Origin: Prescottella equi
GTDB taxonomy: Bacteria; Actinomycetota; Actinomycetes; Mycobacteriales; Mycobacteriaceae
Direction of reading: 5' to 3'
Assembly (NCBI RefSeq): GCF_020171745.1
Contig: NZ_JAIVAH010000021.1
Span: 1 to 36,171 of the forward strand
DNA: 36,171 nt
Below are positions 27,514-35,519 of the stretch, piece after piece. Position numbers and translations under genes: made by a program. Numbering within the stretch: the stretch's first letter is position 1; every line of letters begins with the position of its first letter. Below the pieces are notes generated by a model, which worked only from the letters and a program-made list of their open reading frames with translations, made no database searches and was not told the DNA's origin.

Positions 27514-28143
27514 TCAGAAACGTTCCCAGTGGATCGCGTCGGACAGGTCCCGACGCGTCCGCCAGCCGAAGCGTTCCAGGTCGGGAACCTCCTGGAACTG
27601 GTCCACCTTTCCGACGCACAGCCACGCGATCGGACGGACCGGTGAGGGGATTCCGAGCAGGTCCGTGAGGTACTCCTCGTCGTAGAACGACACCCAGCCG
27701 ACACCGACGTTCTCGGCGGCCGCTGCCAGCCACAGATTCTGGATGGCGAGCACCGCCGAGAACAGGCCGGTGTCGTCGATGGTGTGCCGGCCGAGGATGT
27801 TCTGCCCGCCGCGCGACGGGTCGTACGTGACGACGATGCCGGTGCCGCTCTCCCGGATCCCCTCGATCTTGATGGGGTCGAACGTCTTTCGACGATCCTC
27901 CGGTAACGAGTCGGCGAAGGCGCGGCGGCGCCCGGCGACGTGCTCGGCGAAGGTGTCGAGCGTGTCCTGGTTGCGGACGACGATGAAGTCCCACGGCTGG
28001 GTGTTGCCGACACTCGGGGCCGCGTGCGCCGCACCGAGCACCCTCTGCAGCGTCTCGTCGGGGATCAGTTCGCCACTGAACTCGGCGCGGACGTCACGGC
28101 GTCGGCGGATTGCTTCGTACACGGAAACGAGAGATTCGGTCAC
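27514..28143 (-). CDS. bluB: 5,6-dimethylbenzimidazole synthase (BluB)
   Basis: A flavin-destroying nitroreductase-fold enzyme that makes the lower ligand of vitamin B12 from FMNH2. About 209 residues, with RRRRDVRAEFSGELIPDE at the start, the flavin-binding PSVGNTQPWDFIVV, and the BluB-type GVGWVSFYDEEYLTDLLGIP. A plain nitroreductase is the alternative. GTG at 28143 is chosen because TACCGT, a -10-like hexamer, ends 7 nt upstream; GTG at 28152 is an alternative. Neighbouring CobW and the cobalamin riboswitch support the assignment. Its stop is 15 bp from the converging helicase stop. Confidence 0.85.
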   Translation of the reverse strand: MTESLVSVYEAIRRRRDVRAEFSGELIPDETLQRVLGAAHAAPSVGNTQPWDFIVVRNQDTLDTFAEHVAGRRRAFADSLPEDRRKTFDPIKIEGIRESGTGIVVTYDPSRGGQNILGRHTIDDTGLFSAVLAIQNLWLAAAAENVGVGWVSFYDEEYLTDLLGIPSPVRPIAWLCVGKVDQFQEVPDLERFGWRTRRDLSDAIHWERF

Positions 28144-28188
28144 GCCCTCCACGGTAGCCGCCGCGCCATCGGCGGCGTCACGATCGCG

Positions 28189-29262
28189 TCAGGAGTCGAC
28201 CGTGTACCGGTGCACACCCATCATGGTGTCGCTCTCGAGGTAGTCGGCCTCAGGTTCGACGCACGCGTCGAGCACGGCATCGACGGCGTCCGGGTCCAGG
28301 TCCATGCCGATCACGACCAGTTCGGTGCGCCGGGACTCCCCCGCCACCCAGCGCTGCGGATGGAAGCTGATGTGGTCACCGACCACCTGCAGCAGGTATT
28401 TCTGCTGATAGCCGGGCACGCCGAAGTAGACGAAGCCCTTGATCCGGTAGACGCCGGCCGGTTGCTTCTCGAGGAACCGGATCAGCCGACGAGGGTGCAT
28501 CGGCAGGTCGGACGCGAACGTGACGCTGTCGTACATCGCGTGGATGTGCGGGTCGTGCTGCCCTCCGCACTCACCGCACTGATCCGACGGCTCGTCGGCA
28601 GCGAGCAGCAGGTCGTCGAACGACAACTGCTGGCCGGGACGCGCGACGGGACGCGGAGTCCGGTCGAACAGTAGACCGGGATCGACCCGGCCCTGCACGG
28701 TGGACAGCACCGCGGCGCGCGGGTTGATGCGGCACACGTCGGCGAGCAGCGCGTCGTGCGCATCGGCGTCGATGCGATCGGTCTTGTTGAGGACCACCAG
28801 GTCGGCGATCGCGACGTGCTGGTCCAGTTCCGGGTGACGCTGCCGGCTGCTCTGATACTCGGCGCCGTCGACGAGCATCACCAGGCCGCCGTACGTGATG
28901 TACGGGTTCTCGCTGCCGAGTACCAGCCGAATCATGTTGCGCGGCTCTGCGAGCCCGCTGGCCTCGACGACGATGACGTCGATCTCCGACCGGCGATGCG
29001 CGAGCTTGTTCAGCATCTCGTCCATGTCGCTGACGTCGACCGCGCAGCACAGGCACCCGTTGCTGAGCGCCATCATCGAATCGACTTGTCCCGCAACCAT
29101 CATCGCGTCGATGTTGACCGACCCGAAGTCGTTGACGATGACGCCGATCCGGGTGCCGCCGTTGTTGTGCAGCAGGTGGTTGAGCAGGGTCGTCTTCCCC
29201 GATCCGAGGAATCCCGCCACGATGACGACAGGGATCGAGCGTGGAGCCCGCTTCTTCGTCAC
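28189..29262 (-). CDS. CobW/COG0523 GTPase, metal chaperone
   Basis: A 357-residue G3E GTPase that delivers a metal to a target protein. The P-loop GFLGSGKTT is at residues 17-25, the metal site GCLCC at 69-73, SGLAEP and NKTD further on. A Cys/His cluster inserted near 229-241 (C-x2-C-x3-H-x2-H-x-H) may add a metal-binding site. The C-terminal domain is present. GTG at 29262 has GGAGG upstream; the frame is open upstream but not coding-like. Cobalt for corrinoids is suggested by BluB and the riboswitch, but zinc chaperones look alike. Confidence 0.88.
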   Translation of the reverse strand: MTKKRAPRSIPVVIVAGFLGSGKTTLLNHLLHNNGGTRIGVIVNDFGSVNIDAMMVAGQVDSMMALSNGCLCCAVDVSDMDEMLNKLAHRRSEIDVIVVEASGLAEPRNMIRLVLGSENPYITYGGLVMLVDGAEYQSSRQRHPELDQHVAIADLVVLNKTDRIDADAHDALLADVCRINPRAAVLSTVQGRVDPGLLFDRTPRPVARPGQQLSFDDLLLAADEPSDQCGECGGQHDPHIHAMYDSVTFASDLPMHPRRLIRFLEKQPAGVYRIKGFVYFGVPGYQQKYLLQVVGDHISFHPQRWVAGESRRTELVVIGMDLDPDAVDAVLDACVEPEADYLESDTMMGVHRYTVDS

Positions 29263-29436
29263 CCCAACCTCCACATACCCGACAACACCGACGAGTAATC
29301 GTACTAGGCAGGCCCCTCGACGACTGCGGCGACGCGTGGCCCCGGTCACCGGACCCGCCCATCTACGTAGAACCCCAGTAGGTAGGGTGCATGTGGGTGC
29401 CGGACCCCGGCGCGCGCTCGACGGAGGCTGGTGGAC

Positions 29437-29877
29437 ATGGCACGCATCTCGGTACGCAATCGGATCCGCGGACGAGTGATCGCTGCGGCAGCAGTCGCCG
29501 GCATCGGTACGACGATTCTCGCCGGTTGCGGCACGGACGAGACGGCCACCGCGTCCTCCCCGCGCCTCGTCGACGTCCAGGAGTTCGCCGACATCGCCGC
29601 CGACGACAGCACCTTCGTCCTCAACGTCCACGTGCCCGACGAGGGCACCATCGCCGGGACCGACGGCGCGATCCCGTTCGACGACCTGGCCGCCGGGGCG
29701 GCATCGCTGCCGTCGGATCACGGCACCACCATCGCGGTGTACTGCATGTCGGGCAACATGAGCGCGACCGCCGTGCAGGATCTCGCGCAGTTGGGTTACA
29801 CCGACGTCGTCGAACTCGACGGTGGGATGCGCGCCTGGGTAGCCGACGGGCGCGAATTGCTGCCTCCGGCAGCCTGA
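29437..29877 (+). CDS. rhodanese-domain lipoprotein
   Basis: A 146-residue protein: signal peptide, lipobox LAGC (Cys31), then a single rhodanese domain from about residue 43. The active-site loop CMSGNMS begins at Cys103, and the typical LDGGMRAWV follows. Such exported rhodaneses may shuttle sulphur or bind oxyanions at the cell surface; none is proven here. ATG at 29437 has GGAGG 9 nt upstream. A terminator follows immediately, so it is separate from the riboswitch transcript. Confidence 0.88.
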   Translation: MARISVRNRIRGRVIAAAAVAGIGTTILAGCGTDETATASSPRLVDVQEFADIAADDSTFVLNVHVPDEGTIAGTDGAIPFDDLAAGAASLPSDHGTTIAVYCMSGNMSATAVQDLAQLGYTDVVELDGGMRAWVADGRELLPPAA

Positions 29878-29904
29878 TCCGGCACCGGCGTTTTTGCCGG
29901 ATTT
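29877..29904 (+). terminator. terminator after the rhodanese gene
   Basis: ATCCGGCA (29877-29884) pairs with TGCCGGAT (29895-29902) around a 10-nt loop, followed by TTCGG. It begins at the stop codon and ends just before the riboswitch. Confidence 0.55.
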
Positions 29905-29917
29905 CGGCCGCGTGCAA

Positions 29918-30074
29918 CAATGCCCCGGTCAGGTGATGACGAAAGAGGAAGCCGGTGCGAAACCGGCGCGGTCCCGCCACTGTAATCGGGGAGCGACCCT
30001 TCACATGCCACGGCCCCAGGGCCGGAAGGCGGAGGGAAGTGTCGATCCGAGAGCCAGGAGACTCCCGTCATCGC
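29918..30074 (+). ncRNA. cobalamin (B12) riboswitch
   Basis: The conserved landmarks appear in order: GGTCAGGTGATGACGAAA near the 5' end, GAAGCCGGTGCGAAACCGGC, CGGTCCCGCCACTGTAA, and the B12 box GAGAGCCAGGAGACTC at about 30049-30064. This aptamer binds adenosyl- or methylcobalamin and represses downstream expression. Downstream lie two hairpins, a 28-codon ORF, and the transporter operon. Confidence 0.95.
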
Positions 30075-30085
30075 ACTCTCCTATT

Positions 30086-30122
30086 CGGGGCGGATTTCCC
30101 CGAGAGAGGTGGCCAGTCCACC
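30086..30122 (+). promoter_or_regulatory. likely translational expression platform of the B12 riboswitch
   Basis: CGGGG (30086-30090) pairs with CCCCG (30098-30102). GGTGG (30108-30112) pairs with CCACC (30118-30122), directly before the ATG at 30123. The second hairpin would cover the GAGAGG ribosome site (30103-30109). Alternative pairings with the aptamer were not modelled. Confidence 0.5.
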
Positions 30123-30209
30123 ATGCTGTTCACTGCTTCGTCCCCAGGATTCCCTGTCGCGCGTCGTGTCGCGATCACACCGGACGACTCTCTCCACATC
30201 CACGCCTGA
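30123..30209 (+). CDS. 28-residue small ORF directly after the riboswitch
   Basis: ATG at 30123, stop at 30207-30209. The peptide (MLFTASSPGF... ending DSLHIHA) has no membrane segment or known family. A purine-rich AGAGAGG lies 13-20 nt upstream within a hairpin. Placement right behind the B12 aptamer suggests a leader ORF whose translation is switched and may affect the transporter operon 139 nt downstream. It may equally be untranslated. Too short for family assignment. Confidence 0.4.
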   Translation: MLFTASSPGFPVARRVAITPDDSLHIHA

Positions 30210-30240
30210 CGCCCCGATTCCTTCCCGGAACACCGTCGCC

Positions 30241-30296
30241 TTTCGTTAGGCTGGCCTCGTTCGTCAGGTCGTCTGTACGCATGTTCAGGCGTACAG
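30241..30296 (+). promoter_or_regulatory. weak iron-box match and 24-bp palindrome before the uptake operon
   Basis: TTTCGTTAGGCTGGCCTCG (30241-30259) matches the IdeR consensus at 13 of 19 positions, mostly in the centre and left half. CTGTACGC-ATGTTCAG-GCGTACAG (30273-30296) is a perfect 8-bp inverted repeat, either an operator or an RNA hairpin. Both lie between the small ORF and the binding-protein gene at 30348. They may mark a second control layer. Confidence 0.35.
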
Positions 30297-30347
30297 CAGA
30301 ACGAGTCGAGCCGACGGCCGACCGTCCCGCTCACCTGTGGAGAACAC

Positions 30348-31550
30348 ATGTCCCAACGGTCCACGACCGCTGCGCTTTCCGCCCTTGCCGTAGCCACCCT
30401 TGTCCTCACCGCCTGCTCGTCTGCCGAGTCGCAGACCGGCGACGCAACGCAGGGCGGCCGGGGTTGCATCACCGAATTCGATGCGAACACCGACTACTTC
30501 CCCGACAAGTCGACGCTGTCGGATGCGAAGAACTTCACCCTCGAGTACCACGACAGCTACCAGGTACTGACCGTGAACCAGCCGTATCCCGGCGGCGCCC
30601 CGGAGTCGTACGTGCTGGTCAAGTGCGGCGCCCCGGCACCGGAACTGTCCGGCGACCTGGCATCGGCGCCGCAGATCTCGACGCCGATCACCAGCCTGTA
30701 CTCGGCGTCGACCACGCACCTGCCGCTGATCACCGAACTCGACCAGTTGGACGTCCTGACCGGTGTCGCCAACGCCGGTTTCGTCTCCGATCCCGCGGTG
30801 CGTGAGCGGATCGACGCCGGGAAGGTCGTCGAGTACGCGCCCGGGCAGACGGTGAACACCGAGAAGGTCGTCGCGGCCGACCCGGACGTGCTGATGACCG
30901 GCGGTACCGACGACCCGTCGTACGCCAAGCTCCGGGCCGCCGGGATCCCCGTCGTCGCGAATGCCGAGTACCTCGAGTCGACGGCGCTCGGGCGTGCCGA
31001 GTGGATCAAGGCGATGGCCGCGCTCACTGGCACCGAGGCGCGGGCGAACGAGGTGTACTCGCAGATCCGCAGCGACTACGAGGACGTCGCGGCGAAGGCG
31101 AAAGACGCGGAGCCCAGCCCCGTGCTGCCCGGAACCATGTACCAGGGCACGTGGTACATGCCGGCCGGCGGCAGCTACATCGGCGGCCTGATCCGCGACG
31201 CGGGCGGCAGCTACCCGTGGCTGAGCGACCCCGCCACCGGCAGCCTGCAGCTGAACTTCGAGTCGGTGTACGCGCAGGCCGGCACCGCGCCGACGTGGTT
31301 CGTCACCAGTTCGTGGGAGACGACGGCCGACGCGGTCGCCGAGGATCCCCGCTACGGTCAGCTCGCCGCAGTGCGCGACGGCGCCGTGTGGTCTGCGACG
31401 AAGGCGATCGGCCCGACGGGCGGCAACGACTTCTACGAGCGCGGCGTCACCCGCCCCGACCTGGTGCTCGCCGACGTCGTCGCGATCCTGCACCCGGATC
31501 TGATGCCGGACCACGAGTTCGTGTTCTACCGGCAGGTGCCGCGCGCATGA
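30348..31550 (+). CDS. ABC transporter substrate-binding lipoprotein (corrinoid or ferric chelate)
   Basis: A 400-residue lipoprotein (lipobox LTAC, Cys23) with the TroA/FecB-like fold: ITELDQLDVLTGVANAGF, then ADPDVLMTGG, and later AAGIPVVANAEYLESTALGR. It is longer than the FecB-type proteins at 7022-9078, with an extra N-terminal ~60-residue region containing two Cys. It should bind the ligand outside the membrane for the permease encoded next. ATG at 30348 has GGAG 5 nt upstream; the stop overlaps the permease start (ATGA). The riboswitch upstream points to a corrinoid, but FhuF in the operon leaves ferric chelates possible. Confidence 0.9.
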   Translation: MSQRSTTAALSALAVATLVLTACSSAESQTGDATQGGRGCITEFDANTDYFPDKSTLSDAKNFTLEYHDSYQVLTVNQPYPGGAPESYVLVKCGAPAPELSGDLASAPQISTPITSLYSASTTHLPLITELDQLDVLTGVANAGFVSDPAVRERIDAGKVVEYAPGQTVNTEKVVAADPDVLMTGGTDDPSYAKLRAAGIPVVANAEYLESTALGRAEWIKAMAALTGTEARANEVYSQIRSDYEDVAAKAKDAEPSPVLPGTMYQGTWYMPAGGSYIGGLIRDAGGSYPWLSDPATGSLQLNFESVYAQAGTAPTWFVTSSWETTADAVAEDPRYGQLAAVRDGAVWSATKAIGPTGGNDFYERGVTRPDLVLADVVAILHPDLMPDHEFVFYRQVPRA

Positions 31551-32671
31551 CCACGCTCCTGTCCCGTCCGCCGGCCCCGCTCGCCGGGCCGGCGGACGGG
31601 CGGGGGCCGACGCCGGCACCGCGGGCGTTCTCGCGGCGGACCGCGATCGTGCTGGCGCTGCTCGCAGCGTCCACAGTCGTGCTGTTCGTGCTCGCGCTGG
31701 CCCTCGGACCCATCCGCGTCCCACTCGCGGACACCGTGCGGGTGCTTACCGGCGCCGCCCCCTCCGATCCGCGCTGGCAGGTGGTGGTGCACGAGCTGCG
31801 CCTGCCCCGCGCGATCACCGCCGTCCTCGTCGGCGCCGCGCTCGGCGTTGCCGGTCTGCAGATGCAGACCCTGTTCCGCAACGCGCTCGCCGACCCGTTC
31901 GTGCTCGGTGCCAGTTCCGGGGCAAGCCTCGGCGTCGCGCTGGTCGTCGTCGCGGCAGGAGGGGCGGGCGCCGCGTCCTTCACTTCCGGCTTCGCGGGCG
32001 CCGGACGCGCCGGGATGGTGGCCGCCGCCGCCACCGGCGCGGCCGCCGTGCTGCTGCTGGTGCTGCTGCTGTCGCACTGGGTGAAGAACGCGGTGACCCT
32101 GCTGCTCATCGGTGTGATGGTCGGCTCGGCCACCACCGCGATCGTCAGCGTCCTGCTGGTGTACGCCGATCCGCAACGCGCCCAACAGTTCCTCCTGTGG
32201 GGCCTGGGCAGCTTCGCCGCCACCACGTGGGCCGATCTCGCCCTCATGGGCCCGATCGTGTTGGCGTGCATCGTCATCGCGCTCGCGACGGTCCGGCCCC
32301 TCAACGCACTCCTGCTCGGCGAGGGCTACGCCCGCACGATGGGTATCGACGTCCGGCGCGCCCGCCTGCTCACGCTGCTCGCGGCGTCGCTGCTGGCCGG
32401 GGTGACCACCGCGTTCTGCGGTCCGATCGGGTTCCTCGGCCTCGCCGTCCCGCACCTTTCCCGGCTCGCCGTCGGCACCTCGGACCATCGGTCGCTGATG
32501 CCGACCGTGATCCTCATGGGATCGGCCGTGGCGCTCGCCTGCGGCATCGTCAGCCAGGTGCCCGGCAGCGACGCGGTGCTTCCGCTCAACGCCGTCACCG
32601 CACTGATCGGTGCGCCGATCGTGGTGACGATCCTGGTCCGCAGCCGGCGCGGCGTCGGAGGTGCTCTGTGA
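31547..32671 (+). CDS. FecCD/BtuC family ABC permease
   Basis: A 374-residue membrane protein with about ten helices after a Pro-rich N-terminal stretch (residues 1-35). The family marks LRLPRAITAVLVGAALGVAG, FVLGASSGASLG and GPIGFLGLAVPHLSRL (the cytoplasmic loop that contacts the ATPase) are all present. BtuC/FecCD proteins import cobalamin, haem or ferric siderophores. Its ATG overlaps the binding-protein stop and its TGA overlaps the next GTG. Confidence 0.95.
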   Translation: MTTLLSRPPAPLAGPADGRGPTPAPRAFSRRTAIVLALLAASTVVLFVLALALGPIRVPLADTVRVLTGAAPSDPRWQVVVHELRLPRAITAVLVGAALGVAGLQMQTLFRNALADPFVLGASSGASLGVALVVVAAGGAGAASFTSGFAGAGRAGMVAAAATGAAAVLLLVLLLSHWVKNAVTLLLIGVMVGSATTAIVSVLLVYADPQRAQQFLLWGLGSFAATTWADLALMGPIVLACIVIALATVRPLNALLLGEGYARTMGIDVRRARLLTLLAASLLAGVTTAFCGPIGFLGLAVPHLSRLAVGTSDHRSLMPTVILMGSAVALACGIVSQVPGSDAVLPLNAVTALIGAPIVVTILVRSRRGVGGAL

Positions 32672-34425
32672 ACTCCCCCGTGCACGACGTCGTCCTGTCC
32701 CTCACCGGCGTCGCCGTCGGCTACCGGTCCCGGCGCGCCCTGCGGCCGGCCACCGCCCGCACCGTCGCCTCCGGGATCGAGGCGGTAGCGCGGCGCGGTG
32801 AACTGACCGTGTTGCTCGGCCCCAACGGCAGCGGCAAGTCGACACTGCTGCGCACGCTGTGCGGGCTGCAGCCCTCGCTCGACGGCTCGATCCGGCTGTC
32901 CGGCAATGACCTGCACGCCTTACCTGCCGACGAGCTGGCCCGCGCGATCGCCGTCGTGCTCACCGACCGCGTCGACCCGGGCATGCTGTCGGCGCGCGAG
33001 CTGACCGGACTGGGCCGCACCCCGCACCTCGGCCTCGGCGGCCGGATGGGCGCCCGGGACCACGCCGTGGTCGCGTCGGCGCTCGAGGCTGTCGGCGCCA
33101 CGCACCTGGCCGACCGCCCGGCGAGCGAACTGTCCGACGGCGAGCGCCAACGCGTGCTCACCGCGCGGGCGCTCGCCCAGGAGCCGACGCTGTTGATCCT
33201 CGACGAACCCACCGCGTTCCTCGACGTCCCGTCGCGCGTGGCCCTCGTGGAACTGTTGCGCACCGCGGCACGGGACCACGACCTGGCCGTGGTGATGTCG
33301 ACGCACGACCTGGAGTTGGCGCTGCGCGTTGCCGACCACGTGTGGCTCGTGGACCGCACCGGCAGCCTGACTACCGGCACGCCGGAGCGCCTCGCGCTGG
33401 ACGGCCGGATCGGGGACGTCTTCGATTCGCGGTCACTGCGATTCGACGTCGGCTCCGGGGTGTTCACCCTCACGCCCGCGCACGCGTCCCCGATCCGGGC
33501 GCGGGTCCGCGCACCGGAACCGGCGGCGTCGGCGATCGGGCGGCTGCTCGGACGGGAGGGCGCGGTGGTGGTCGACGACGACCGTCCGGCGGACCTGCTC
33601 GTCGAGTCGCACGACGGTCTCGCCGTCCACCATGCCGGGACGACACTCCCGATCGACGGCCTGGACGCCCTCCCCTGCGTCCTGCGGACACTCCCGCACA
33701 CCGCGGTGACCCTTCCGCCCCGCGACGCGGTCACGTCGACCCTGGCGACACTGTCCAGCCTCGGCCCGTACTTCACCGCCACGACGGGCGATCCCGGGCC
33801 GGGAGACTGGCGTCCGGTGCGCGACCTGTACGACGACGCCGACGCGCTCGCTGCCGTCGTCGGGCACGTGGGTGCGCGGATCGGCACCACCGAGTACCGG
33901 GTGGCGGCGTCGACGCTGTTCCTCGGCTACGCGGCCCGGCTGTGGTCGCTGGCGCTCGGCGGCATCGTGCGCGCCGGAATCCTGCCCGACGTCGACCGTC
34001 TGCTGTGGCGTGACGTGGACGGCCGGATCGACCTGCACCTGTCCGAACCCGTCGGCTGGGCAGGCGACGAACCGGCCGAACTTGTCGGCGTCGCGTGCGA
34101 GACGGTCCTCGGTCGCCACCTGGCACCGATGATCGCCGCGATCCGCGCCGTCGAGCCGATGTCGGAGCGGCTGCTGTGGGGCAACGCCGCGTCGGCGCTG
34201 ATCGGTGCCGCCCGCGTTCTCGACGGCGAGACCCGCACGGACGCAGTGAACATCGTCGAACGGATCCTGCTCGATCCCCGGCTGGTCGAGACCGTCGACC
34301 ACGAGGGCGCCGGCTACCGGCGTCGCAGCTGCTGCCTGTTCTATCGCACGTCCGTCTCCGGTTATTGCGGGGACTGCGTGCTCACCCGTCCGCACGAACC
34401 CGAGGAGAAGGAGGAGTCGGCATGA
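32668..34425 (+). CDS. ABC ATPase fused to a FhuF-like [2Fe-2S] reductase domain
   Basis: A 585-residue fusion. Residues ~1-260 form a BtuD/FepC-type ATPase: Walker A LLGPNGSGKSTLL, signature LSDGERQRV, Walker B LLILDEP, H-loop VMSTHD. Residues ~290-585 resemble FhuF-type ferric-siderophore reductases, ending with RRSCCLFYRTS...GYCGDC, that is CC-x10-C-x2-C at Cys555, 556, 567 and 570, the [2Fe-2S] ligand pattern. The two parts are read in one frame with no stop or ribosome site between, so the fusion is genuine in this sequence. A GTG start at 32668 has GGAGGTG upstream. Confidence 0.88.
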   Translation: MNSPVHDVVLSLTGVAVGYRSRRALRPATARTVASGIEAVARRGELTVLLGPNGSGKSTLLRTLCGLQPSLDGSIRLSGNDLHALPADELARAIAVVLTDRVDPGMLSARELTGLGRTPHLGLGGRMGARDHAVVASALEAVGATHLADRPASELSDGERQRVLTARALAQEPTLLILDEPTAFLDVPSRVALVELLRTAARDHDLAVVMSTHDLELALRVADHVWLVDRTGSLTTGTPERLALDGRIGDVFDSRSLRFDVGSGVFTLTPAHASPIRARVRAPEPAASAIGRLLGREGAVVVDDDRPADLLVESHDGLAVHHAGTTLPIDGLDALPCVLRTLPHTAVTLPPRDAVTSTLATLSSLGPYFTATTGDPGPGDWRPVRDLYDDADALAAVVGHVGARIGTTEYRVAASTLFLGYAARLWSLALGGIVRAGILPDVDRLLWRDVDGRIDLHLSEPVGWAGDEPAELVGVACETVLGRHLAPMIAAIRAVEPMSERLLWGNAASALIGAARVLDGETRTDAVNIVERILLDPRLVETVDHEGAGYRRRSCCLFYRTSVSGYCGDCVLTRPHEPEEKEESA

Positions 34426-35000
34426 CCACCGCACAACCCGAAGAGGTCGAGCCACCGATCGTCGTCACCGAGGGCGGTGGCCGCGAACAGATGTGGCCCA
34501 TCCCGGCCGACGAGCAGTCGCTGCTGAACCTGATGCACATCCTTTTCGACGAGTACTGGGACGACATCTGGTTCGGCGTCCTCGTCGAGGGCGCCGCGTG
34601 GGAGGTGGCCGCACCCAATGCAGCGAAGCGCATCTCGCTGTTCGACGGCTACGCGACGATCGACTTCGGCCGGTGGCACTTCCACCTGTGCATCGGCGAA
34701 CACAAGGACAGCGGGCCGGAACTCGGCCGGATCCGCCGCTGCTCGCGGGCCGAGATGTACCGCAGTCTCGGCGCCGACGGCACCCCACACTCGTGGGGCA
34801 TCCGCATGTTCAACGGCCGCGGCGAGCAGATGATGACGGCGATGCTGCCGAACCCGTTCCTGACGAAGACCCAGCAGATCCGCGACGAGCTCGACTTCTC
34901 GCAACTCGAACTGTGGGACCGTCTGCGCGAGCTGTACCTCGGCCTGGGGCCGGACGAGCTGGATCGGCAGGGCAAGGGTTACGGCCGACACGACGGCTGA
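34422..35000 (+). CDS. uncharacterised His/Cys-rich protein of the uptake operon
   Basis: A 192-residue soluble protein; I recognise no characterised family. Notable features are the acidic/aromatic FDEYWDDIWFGVLVEGAAWE (residues ~42-61), the DGYATIDFGRWHFHLCIGEH region with His86, His88, Cys90 and His94, and single Cys107 and His123. The HxHxCx3H pattern would suit metal or cofactor binding. No signal peptide or membrane helix is seen. ATG overlaps the fusion gene's stop (ATGA), so it is co-translated and probably works with the transporter, perhaps handling the imported metal or corrinoid. Confidence 0.8.
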   Translation: MTTAQPEEVEPPIVVTEGGGREQMWPIPADEQSLLNLMHILFDEYWDDIWFGVLVEGAAWEVAAPNAAKRISLFDGYATIDFGRWHFHLCIGEHKDSGPELGRIRRCSRAEMYRSLGADGTPHSWGIRMFNGRGEQMMTAMLPNPFLTKTQQIRDELDFSQLELWDRLRELYLGLGPDELDRQGKGYGRHDG

Positions 35001-35222: not shown

Positions 35223-35519
35223 ATGATCCTCGAACACGCTCCCCTGCAGGTGAAGCCGGGCCACGCCGACCACTTCGAAGCGGCCTTCGCGCAGGCGAAA
35301 CGCATCATCTCCGCCATGCCCGGATTCCGACGGCTCTCGCTGTCCCGCTGCATCGAACGGCCGGACGGCTATCTGCTGCTCGTCGAATGGGACACCCTCG
35401 AGGACCACACGGAAGGCTTCCGCGGCTCGGACGAGTACCAGGAATGGCGGCGACTGCTGCACCACTTCTACGATCCGTTCCCCACCGTCGAGCACTACGA
35501 GGCCGTCGACCAGGCCTGA
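35223..35519 (+). CDS. antibiotic biosynthesis monooxygenase (ABM) domain protein
   Basis: A 98-residue ferredoxin-like-fold protein. Typical ABM segments are seen: the opening ILEHAPLQVKPGHADHFEAA, the PGFRRLSLSRCIERPDGYLL strand region, and VEWDTLEDHTEGFRGSDEY. Family members include cofactor-free monooxygenases and haem-degrading enzymes, but the haem-binding Asn/His pair cannot be confirmed. ATG at 35223 follows an AGGA-like site. It is 35 bp beyond the 6C RNA's last stem. Confidence 0.85.
   Translation: MILEHAPLQVKPGHADHFEAAFAQAKRIISAMPGFRRLSLSRCIERPDGYLLLVEWDTLEDHTEGFRGSDEYQEWRRLLHHFYDPFPTVEHYEAVDQA

Follow-up and report, generated by a model that had tools for sequence, protein, structure and literature searches.

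The 36,171-nucleotide stretch of Prescottella equi contig NZ_JAIVAH010000021.1 analysed here (the window; contig C21 of a 5.49-Mb genome) carries a cobalamin riboswitch followed by four genes, encoding a BtuF-like lipoprotein, a FecCD/BtuC-type permease, an ATP-binding cassette (ABC) ATPase fused to a FhuF-like reductase domain, and a DUF7676 protein (Table 1). A preliminary description made from the letters of this DNA had named these parts. The riboswitch was confirmed well above the RF00174 gathering score of 31.5 bits, as the sole Rfam match above gathering within the window, and the lipoprotein, permease and ATPase-FhuF fusion were borne out by Pfam matches above their cut-offs. The three gene junctions (ATGA, GTGA and ATGA) each overlap by 4 nucleotides, as had been described. 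The last gene, presented as encoding an unknown His/Cys-rich protein, is indeed present, but its product is not unknown, being a member of a named Pfam family with a predicted cytoplasmic heme-trafficking fold. Its nearest relative found was in Rhodococcus sp. OK519 (90% identical). When an expression platform was sought, no terminator-like site was found on the plus strand, and the leader fold was not clearly stronger than that of shuffled sequences (z -1.54, 9 of 100 shuffles as good).

Table 1. Coordinates of the operon in the window, followed by its flanking genes
Feature	Position	Strand	Support
Cobalamin riboswitch aptamer (RF00174)	29887..30084	+	cmscan 94.1 bits, E 2.3e-22; own-genome search E 8.4e-24
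BtuF-like substrate-binding lipoprotein	30348..31550	+	PF01497 88.4 bits; signal peptide with LTAC lipobox (by eye)
FecCD/BtuC-type permease	31547..32671	+	PF01032 253.8 bits
ABC ATPase fused to FhuF-like reductase domain	32668..34425	+	PF00005, PF06276, PF11575 above cut-off
DUF7676 protein, 192 residues	34422..35000	+	PF24724 226 bits
BluB, 5,6-dimethylbenzimidazole synthase (flank)	27514..28152	-	TIGR02476 212.3 bits, cut-off 150
Open reading frame with CobW/COG0523-type GTPase (flank)	28189..29721	-	PF02492 and PF07683; family match starts near 29240
Rhodanese-domain lipoprotein (flank; we do not count it in the system)	29431..29877	+	PF00581 40.7 bits
Antibiotic biosynthesis monooxygenase (ABM) domain protein (flank, downstream)	35223..35519	+	PF03992

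A contig scan with the DUF7676 protein gave 65 homologous loci (cited below by L numbers), and the full set of binding protein, permease, ATPase, FhuF and DUF7676 was recovered by tblastn in 46 of them. With our own riboswitch covariance model, built from six sequences (the window, L006, L007, L008, L014 and L037), a riboswitch core was found upstream of the binding-protein gene on the same strand in 42 of the 46 complete operons (five being model sequences), starting 129-406 nucleotides ahead of the gene start; the Rfam model concurred in the seven such loci on which it was run. The operon is a real, conserved, riboswitch-linked module. Among the 19 remaining loci, L045 and L050 have FhuF and DUF7676 with no BtuFCD set in view (L050 adjoins CbiM). 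In L056 there is an ATPase match, with a riboswitch downstream; the riboswitch of L030 is divergent; and CobD/CbiB and an aminotransferase are found close to L051. The permease/ATPase genes are distant in L012 and L068, and L061, L064 and L066 are alphaproteobacterial.

The importer core has the three parts of BtuFCD in one operon, a PF01497 protein, a FecCD permease and an ABC ATPase, all above their Pfam cut-offs. Against NCBIfam models, the lipoprotein matched BtuF with an E-value of 0.0014, the top model for the permease was the vitamin B12 permease BtuC, and those for the ATPase were a putative F420-0 ATPase followed by a corrinoid ATPase, all under their cut-offs. The binding protein has orthologues, at E up to 1e-20, in 16 of the 249 genomes sampled from the order, and six of these genomes carry DUF7676. 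A cobalamin riboswitch lies upstream in seven of the ten without DUF7676 (none in L162, L164 and L169), so the link of this importer clade to B12 holds irrespective of FhuF and DUF7676. The window's own genome also encodes a paralogous binding protein, permease and ATPase set (L159, G000:C4:133192-134352; 48-57% identical), in which no FhuF, DUF7676 or riboswitch was found, and a second riboswitch-linked binding protein/permease/ATPase operon (L118:3022-6834, G000:C5). The latter is followed by a protein with a PF01257 thioredoxin-like [2Fe-2S] ferredoxin domain, another iron-sulphur protein beside a B12-regulated importer.

In the fused protein, the FhuF domain (28.8 bits, cut-off 25.2) and FhuF_C (28.5 bits, cut-off 20.5; at about 34321-34383) were both recognised. 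The FhuF-like domain terminates in a CC-x10-C-x2-C cluster motif, and these ligands are present in all 46 complete operons and in both FhuF-DUF7676 pairs. In a phmmer comparison with Escherichia coli FhuF (7qp5), residues 207-302 of the 315-residue C-terminal part matched with an E-value of 0.0097. ATPase and FhuF form a single reading frame in 40 of the 46 operons and two genes in six labelled Rhodococcus; this alternation of fused and split forms speaks for joint function. FhuF and DUF7676 overlap by 4 nucleotides in 34 of the 46. Besides the window, the alignment of the fusion (A4) took in 23 of the 40 fused loci, one residue being unread in the L060 row. An AlphaFold2 model of the fusion had a predicted local distance difference test (pLDDT) score of 86.8, and its best Foldseek match was the ATPase of the heme importer HmuUV. 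The 50 matches listed of 1634 are ABC transporter ATPases by title, so that the FhuF part and the linker of residues 277-341 were not placed structurally. This linker was confidently predicted as a small alpha/beta domain, which may be regulatory or serve in docking.

DUF7676 carries a conserved HxHLCIG motif, and its AlphaFold2 model (pLDDT 88.5) gave Foldseek and VIA matches to ChuX/HutX/HemS, a fold that it is thus predicted to share. Its sole Pfam match is DUF7676, with no match to ChuX_HutX or HemS. In the underlying alignment (A3), 26 of the 65 loci were included together with the window; L054 was dropped because of a stop codon, the DUF7676 genes of L065 and L067, split by frame breaks, were left as they are, and L069 and L070 are partial matches. 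The family is rare: among 249 genomes of the order six have it, counting that of the window; so do 2 of 396 genomes of the phylum, both among those six, and 13 of 289 genomes of the class of alphaproteobacterium G631, itself counted. On the Prescottella defluvii chromosome (L063) we observed two partial DUF7676 matches along with split binding-protein, ATPase and CobW matches, which may reflect decay, duplication or sequencing errors.

In the alphaproteobacterial sample (the class of G631), DUF7676 was traced to 14 loci, in 11 of which it occurs together with a riboswitch and a TonB-dependent receptor (L091, L094, L095, whose riboswitch is cut by the contig end, L097-L101, L061, L064 and L066). 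Several of these loci run on into BtuF/C/D-type genes, and all 11 receptors best fit the vitamin B12 receptor model TIGR01779, each well under its cut-off. The set is lacking in L092, L093 (a 4.5-kb contig) and L096. At L092:6984-7580, the genes next to DUF7676 resemble glutamine synthetase and PII genes (by eye), and the stretch in view shows no B12 signal. In a riboswitch-receptor-DUF7676-BtuCD operon, a DUF1636 protein, which we take to be a possible ferredoxin-like redox partner, directly follows the ATPase (L101:9965-10363).

The preliminary description had left open whether the system imports a corrinoid, with Co(III) reduced on entry, or a ferric chelate under B12 control, and had proposed asking whether homologous operons lie behind B12 riboswitches. 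They do, in the 42 of 46 cases given above. Iron boxes stayed at the shuffled level: using a DtxR/IdeR consensus, the mean best score over 47 upstream regions of up to 600 nucleotides was 10.72, against 10.53 for shuffled sequences. These two results favour the corrinoid branch, whose chemistry we infer. Siderophore uptake as the main role was rejected because no iron-box enrichment was found. A DtxR-like match of 13/19 was observed between the riboswitch and the first gene (window 30241-30259) and at the same relative place in L006; shuffled sequences reach 14. That match would suit an iron or heme uptake system merely under B12 control, as would the HmuUV hit of the fusion model and the known occurrence in iron and heme uptake of FecCD importers, of FhuF and of the HutX fold. 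We consider such a system highly improbable, given the overall equality of iron-box scores with shuffled ones and the cobalamin riboswitches that accompany DUF7676 in two phyla. Moreover, genes of the ChuX/HutX family stand apart from DUF7676 in the alphaproteobacterial genomes G630, G631 and G676 and are absent from two other DUF7676 genomes of the same sample, G638 and G653, and no riboswitch was found at 16 matches to this family from eight genomes.

Import of a corrinoid is the function we regard as likely. What the sequences establish is the make-up of the operon with its riboswitch, the conservation of their linkage, the cysteine motif of FhuF and a predicted fold; cargo, direction of regulation, electron transfer and ordered handover we infer as follows. 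Ample B12 would lead the riboswitch to repress the operon. The lipoprotein would capture the corrinoid, and the FecCD permease and ATPase would carry it through the membrane at the expense of ATP. Next, the [2Fe-2S] domain of FhuF type that is attached to the ATPase would give up one electron to the cobalt; the resulting reduction of Co(III) to Co(II) would weaken the hold on the upper ligand. DUF7676, with its heme-chaperone-like predicted fold, is proposed as the cytoplasmic acceptor that would bind the reduced corrinoid and deliver it to an adenosyltransferase; the host has CobO. This handover is a step proposed here beyond the preliminary description. A potential of -0.36 V suffices to reduce aquocob(III)alamin but cannot alone drive the step from free Co(II) to Co(I). 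Such a potential was reported for E. coli FhuF at pH 7.4 (PMC8068687). The complete account, with import, tethered reduction and handover together, seems to us somewhat more probable than its negation.

The two strongest rivals are a general corrin reductase and cobalt-chelate uptake. The window's FhuF part matches 98 of 249 genomes of the order (E up to 1e-4). Outside DUF7676 operons there were 63 matches at E up to 3.2e-9; of these, 43 were examined and 20 were not, the choice being made by E-value rank, blind to context; the stretch examined covered about 1.5-2 kb on each side, on either strand. A riboswitch occurred within it at 17 of the 43 loci, compared with under one expected by chance (assuming about 5 riboswitches per 6-Mb genome), and lies directly upstream of FhuF on the same strand in L134, L136/L174, L139/L176 and L182. 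A second BtuC/BtuD pair, 34-39% identical to that of the window, is followed by FhuF in six loci, with BluB in view in four, and a larger stretch of L175 holds a riboswitch, a PF01497 protein, a permease, an ATPase and FhuF. None of 11 weak-match loci (L208-L218) was near a riboswitch, although this control is imperfect, no row fitting the motif pattern used. In a tree of 59 FhuF rows, those linked to B12 were clustered and did not form one clade, several label changes being needed; neighbouring FhuF loci are kin by descent, so the counts are not independent events. The operon suggests that a share of the Actinomycetes genes annotated as ferric iron reductase FhuF act on cobalt. We advance only tentatively the combined view that corrinoids are reduced on entry by a motor-borne [2Fe-2S] domain and passed to a DUF7676 chaperone, and that much of Actinomycetes FhuF is a corrin or cobalt reductase of the B12 regulon rather than a siderophore reductase.

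The same FhuF loci bear on the possibility that the operon is a corrinoid importer whose FhuF acts as a general reductase of corrins, new and imported alike, on behalf of the adenosyltransferase, fusion being convenient co-expression only. FhuF also stands beside CbtA, ChlI/ChlD-like or tetrapyrrole methylase genes with no importer in view, or directly behind a riboswitch beside recA (L174 and L176), and importer-linked FhuF is not one clade. Yet FhuF is fused to the ATPase in 40 of 46 operons and recurs in a second importer clade, which suggests that its proximity to the importer is important, and we judge the general reductase unlikely. In L174:4879-5729 and L176:4990-5834, both from genomes of the window's family, the lone FhuF-like gene behind the cobalamin riboswitch is divergent from a recA-like gene (by eye). 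Rv2737A of Mycobacterium tuberculosis, a small Cys-rich gene fragment beside recA, might be a remnant.

Alternatively, the operon might import cobalt on a siderophore-like chelator, FhuF reducing the Co(III)-chelate and freeing Co(II) for B12 synthesis. The CbtJKL system of Sinorhizobium meliloti, an ABC importer of Co(II), was initially mistaken for a B12 importer owing to the similarity of CbtJ to BtuF (PMC7689651). In L187, L195 and L200 a riboswitch is followed by CbtA, a predicted cobalt transporter, and then FhuF, an order that suits metal chemistry as well. The host's CobO gene lies in a cluster with a riboswitch match just below the cut-off, so the host may make B12. Nevertheless, the predicted fold of DUF7676 is tetrapyrrole-carrier-like, in 11 alphaproteobacterial loci the family accompanies a receptor that most resembles B12 receptors, and the host already has CbtA near another riboswitch match, likewise just below the cut-off; we find cobalt-chelate uptake quite improbable.

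Several observations weigh against the preferred reading, a corrinoid importer with tethered reduction and handover. The curated NCBIfam equivalog cut-offs for BtuF, BtuC and BtuD were missed (17.8/234, 186.6/334 and 104.4/281 bits), so the proteins are filed as BtuFCD-like only, and the L159 paralogue of the same genome has no riboswitch. No riboswitch was detected upstream of four complete operons (L013, L035, L058 and L062), and seven of the 65 loci have no B12 link in view (L038, L042, L044, L049, L067, L069 and L070). In Pseudonocardia, L055 and L059 have BtuFCD-DUF7676 with no FhuF match and no riboswitch, and a FhuF search in the 14 alphaproteobacterial loci gave no match; FhuF is not essential to the module. 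Furthermore, 26 of the 43 FhuF loci had no riboswitch in the examined stretch, and the CbtA-FhuF arrangement belongs here too. Alignment of DUF7676 to the two HemS halves by hhalign was not significant (probabilities 0.3% and 4.7%), and no solved structure matched alignment A3 by sequence, so the relation of DUF7676 to heme proteins rests on predicted structure.

As for the flanks, BluB and the CobW GTPase, described earlier as adjacent, are both present, but on the opposite strand, and the rhodanese lipoprotein gene intervenes between the CobW-type GTPase and the riboswitch. BluB adjoins the operon in 2 of the 65 loci (L006 and L063; some loci end at contig ends) and is not a general feature of it. 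The ABM gene is retained downstream in L006, L039 and L063.

For corrinoid reduction and decyanation in actinobacteria, the operon offers concrete candidates, an importer-joined reductase and an acceptor protein, and DUF7676 gains a likely role. DUF7676 was named in no paper of the literature searched. That literature (including the accessible parts of PMC4531530, PMC3603451, PMC3766115 and PMC2667541; subscription papers lay mostly outside it) contained no link between FhuF and B12 import, and an earlier mention of the operon is possible. For M. tuberculosis, a 2025 review gives the decyanation step as not determined (PMC12713380).

Among known systems, the operon is an importer of the BtuFCD kind with an added reductase domain and a DUF7676 gene. 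It shares with the type II ABC importer BtuF-BtuC-BtuD the three parts and cobalamin riboswitch control, but scores below the curated Btu models, bears a reductase domain on its ATPase and has a fourth, HutX-like gene. The predicted mycobacterial BtuFCD of M. smegmatis, MSMEG_4560-4558, is alike by published description only (PMC8088520, PMC12713380); whether its genes function as transporters was described as unknown in the 2021 study (PMC8088520). E. coli FhuF (7qp5; PMC8068687) has the same domain and the exact CC-x10-C-x2-C motif, whereas the domain found here is joined to an ABC ATPase and occurs with B12 riboswitches. With ChuX/HutX/HemS/PhuS, DUF7676 has in common the predicted fold, a gene beside a FecCD-type importer, small size and no signal peptide (by eye); it differs in showing no significant sequence similarity, in its HxHLCIG motif and in a B12 rather than heme context. 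BtuM of Thiobacillus denitrificans, which transports B12, has been proposed to combine uptake with decyanation, but it is an S-component-like membrane protein that uses a cysteine and has no ABC ATPase or iron-sulphur domain (PMC6072759).

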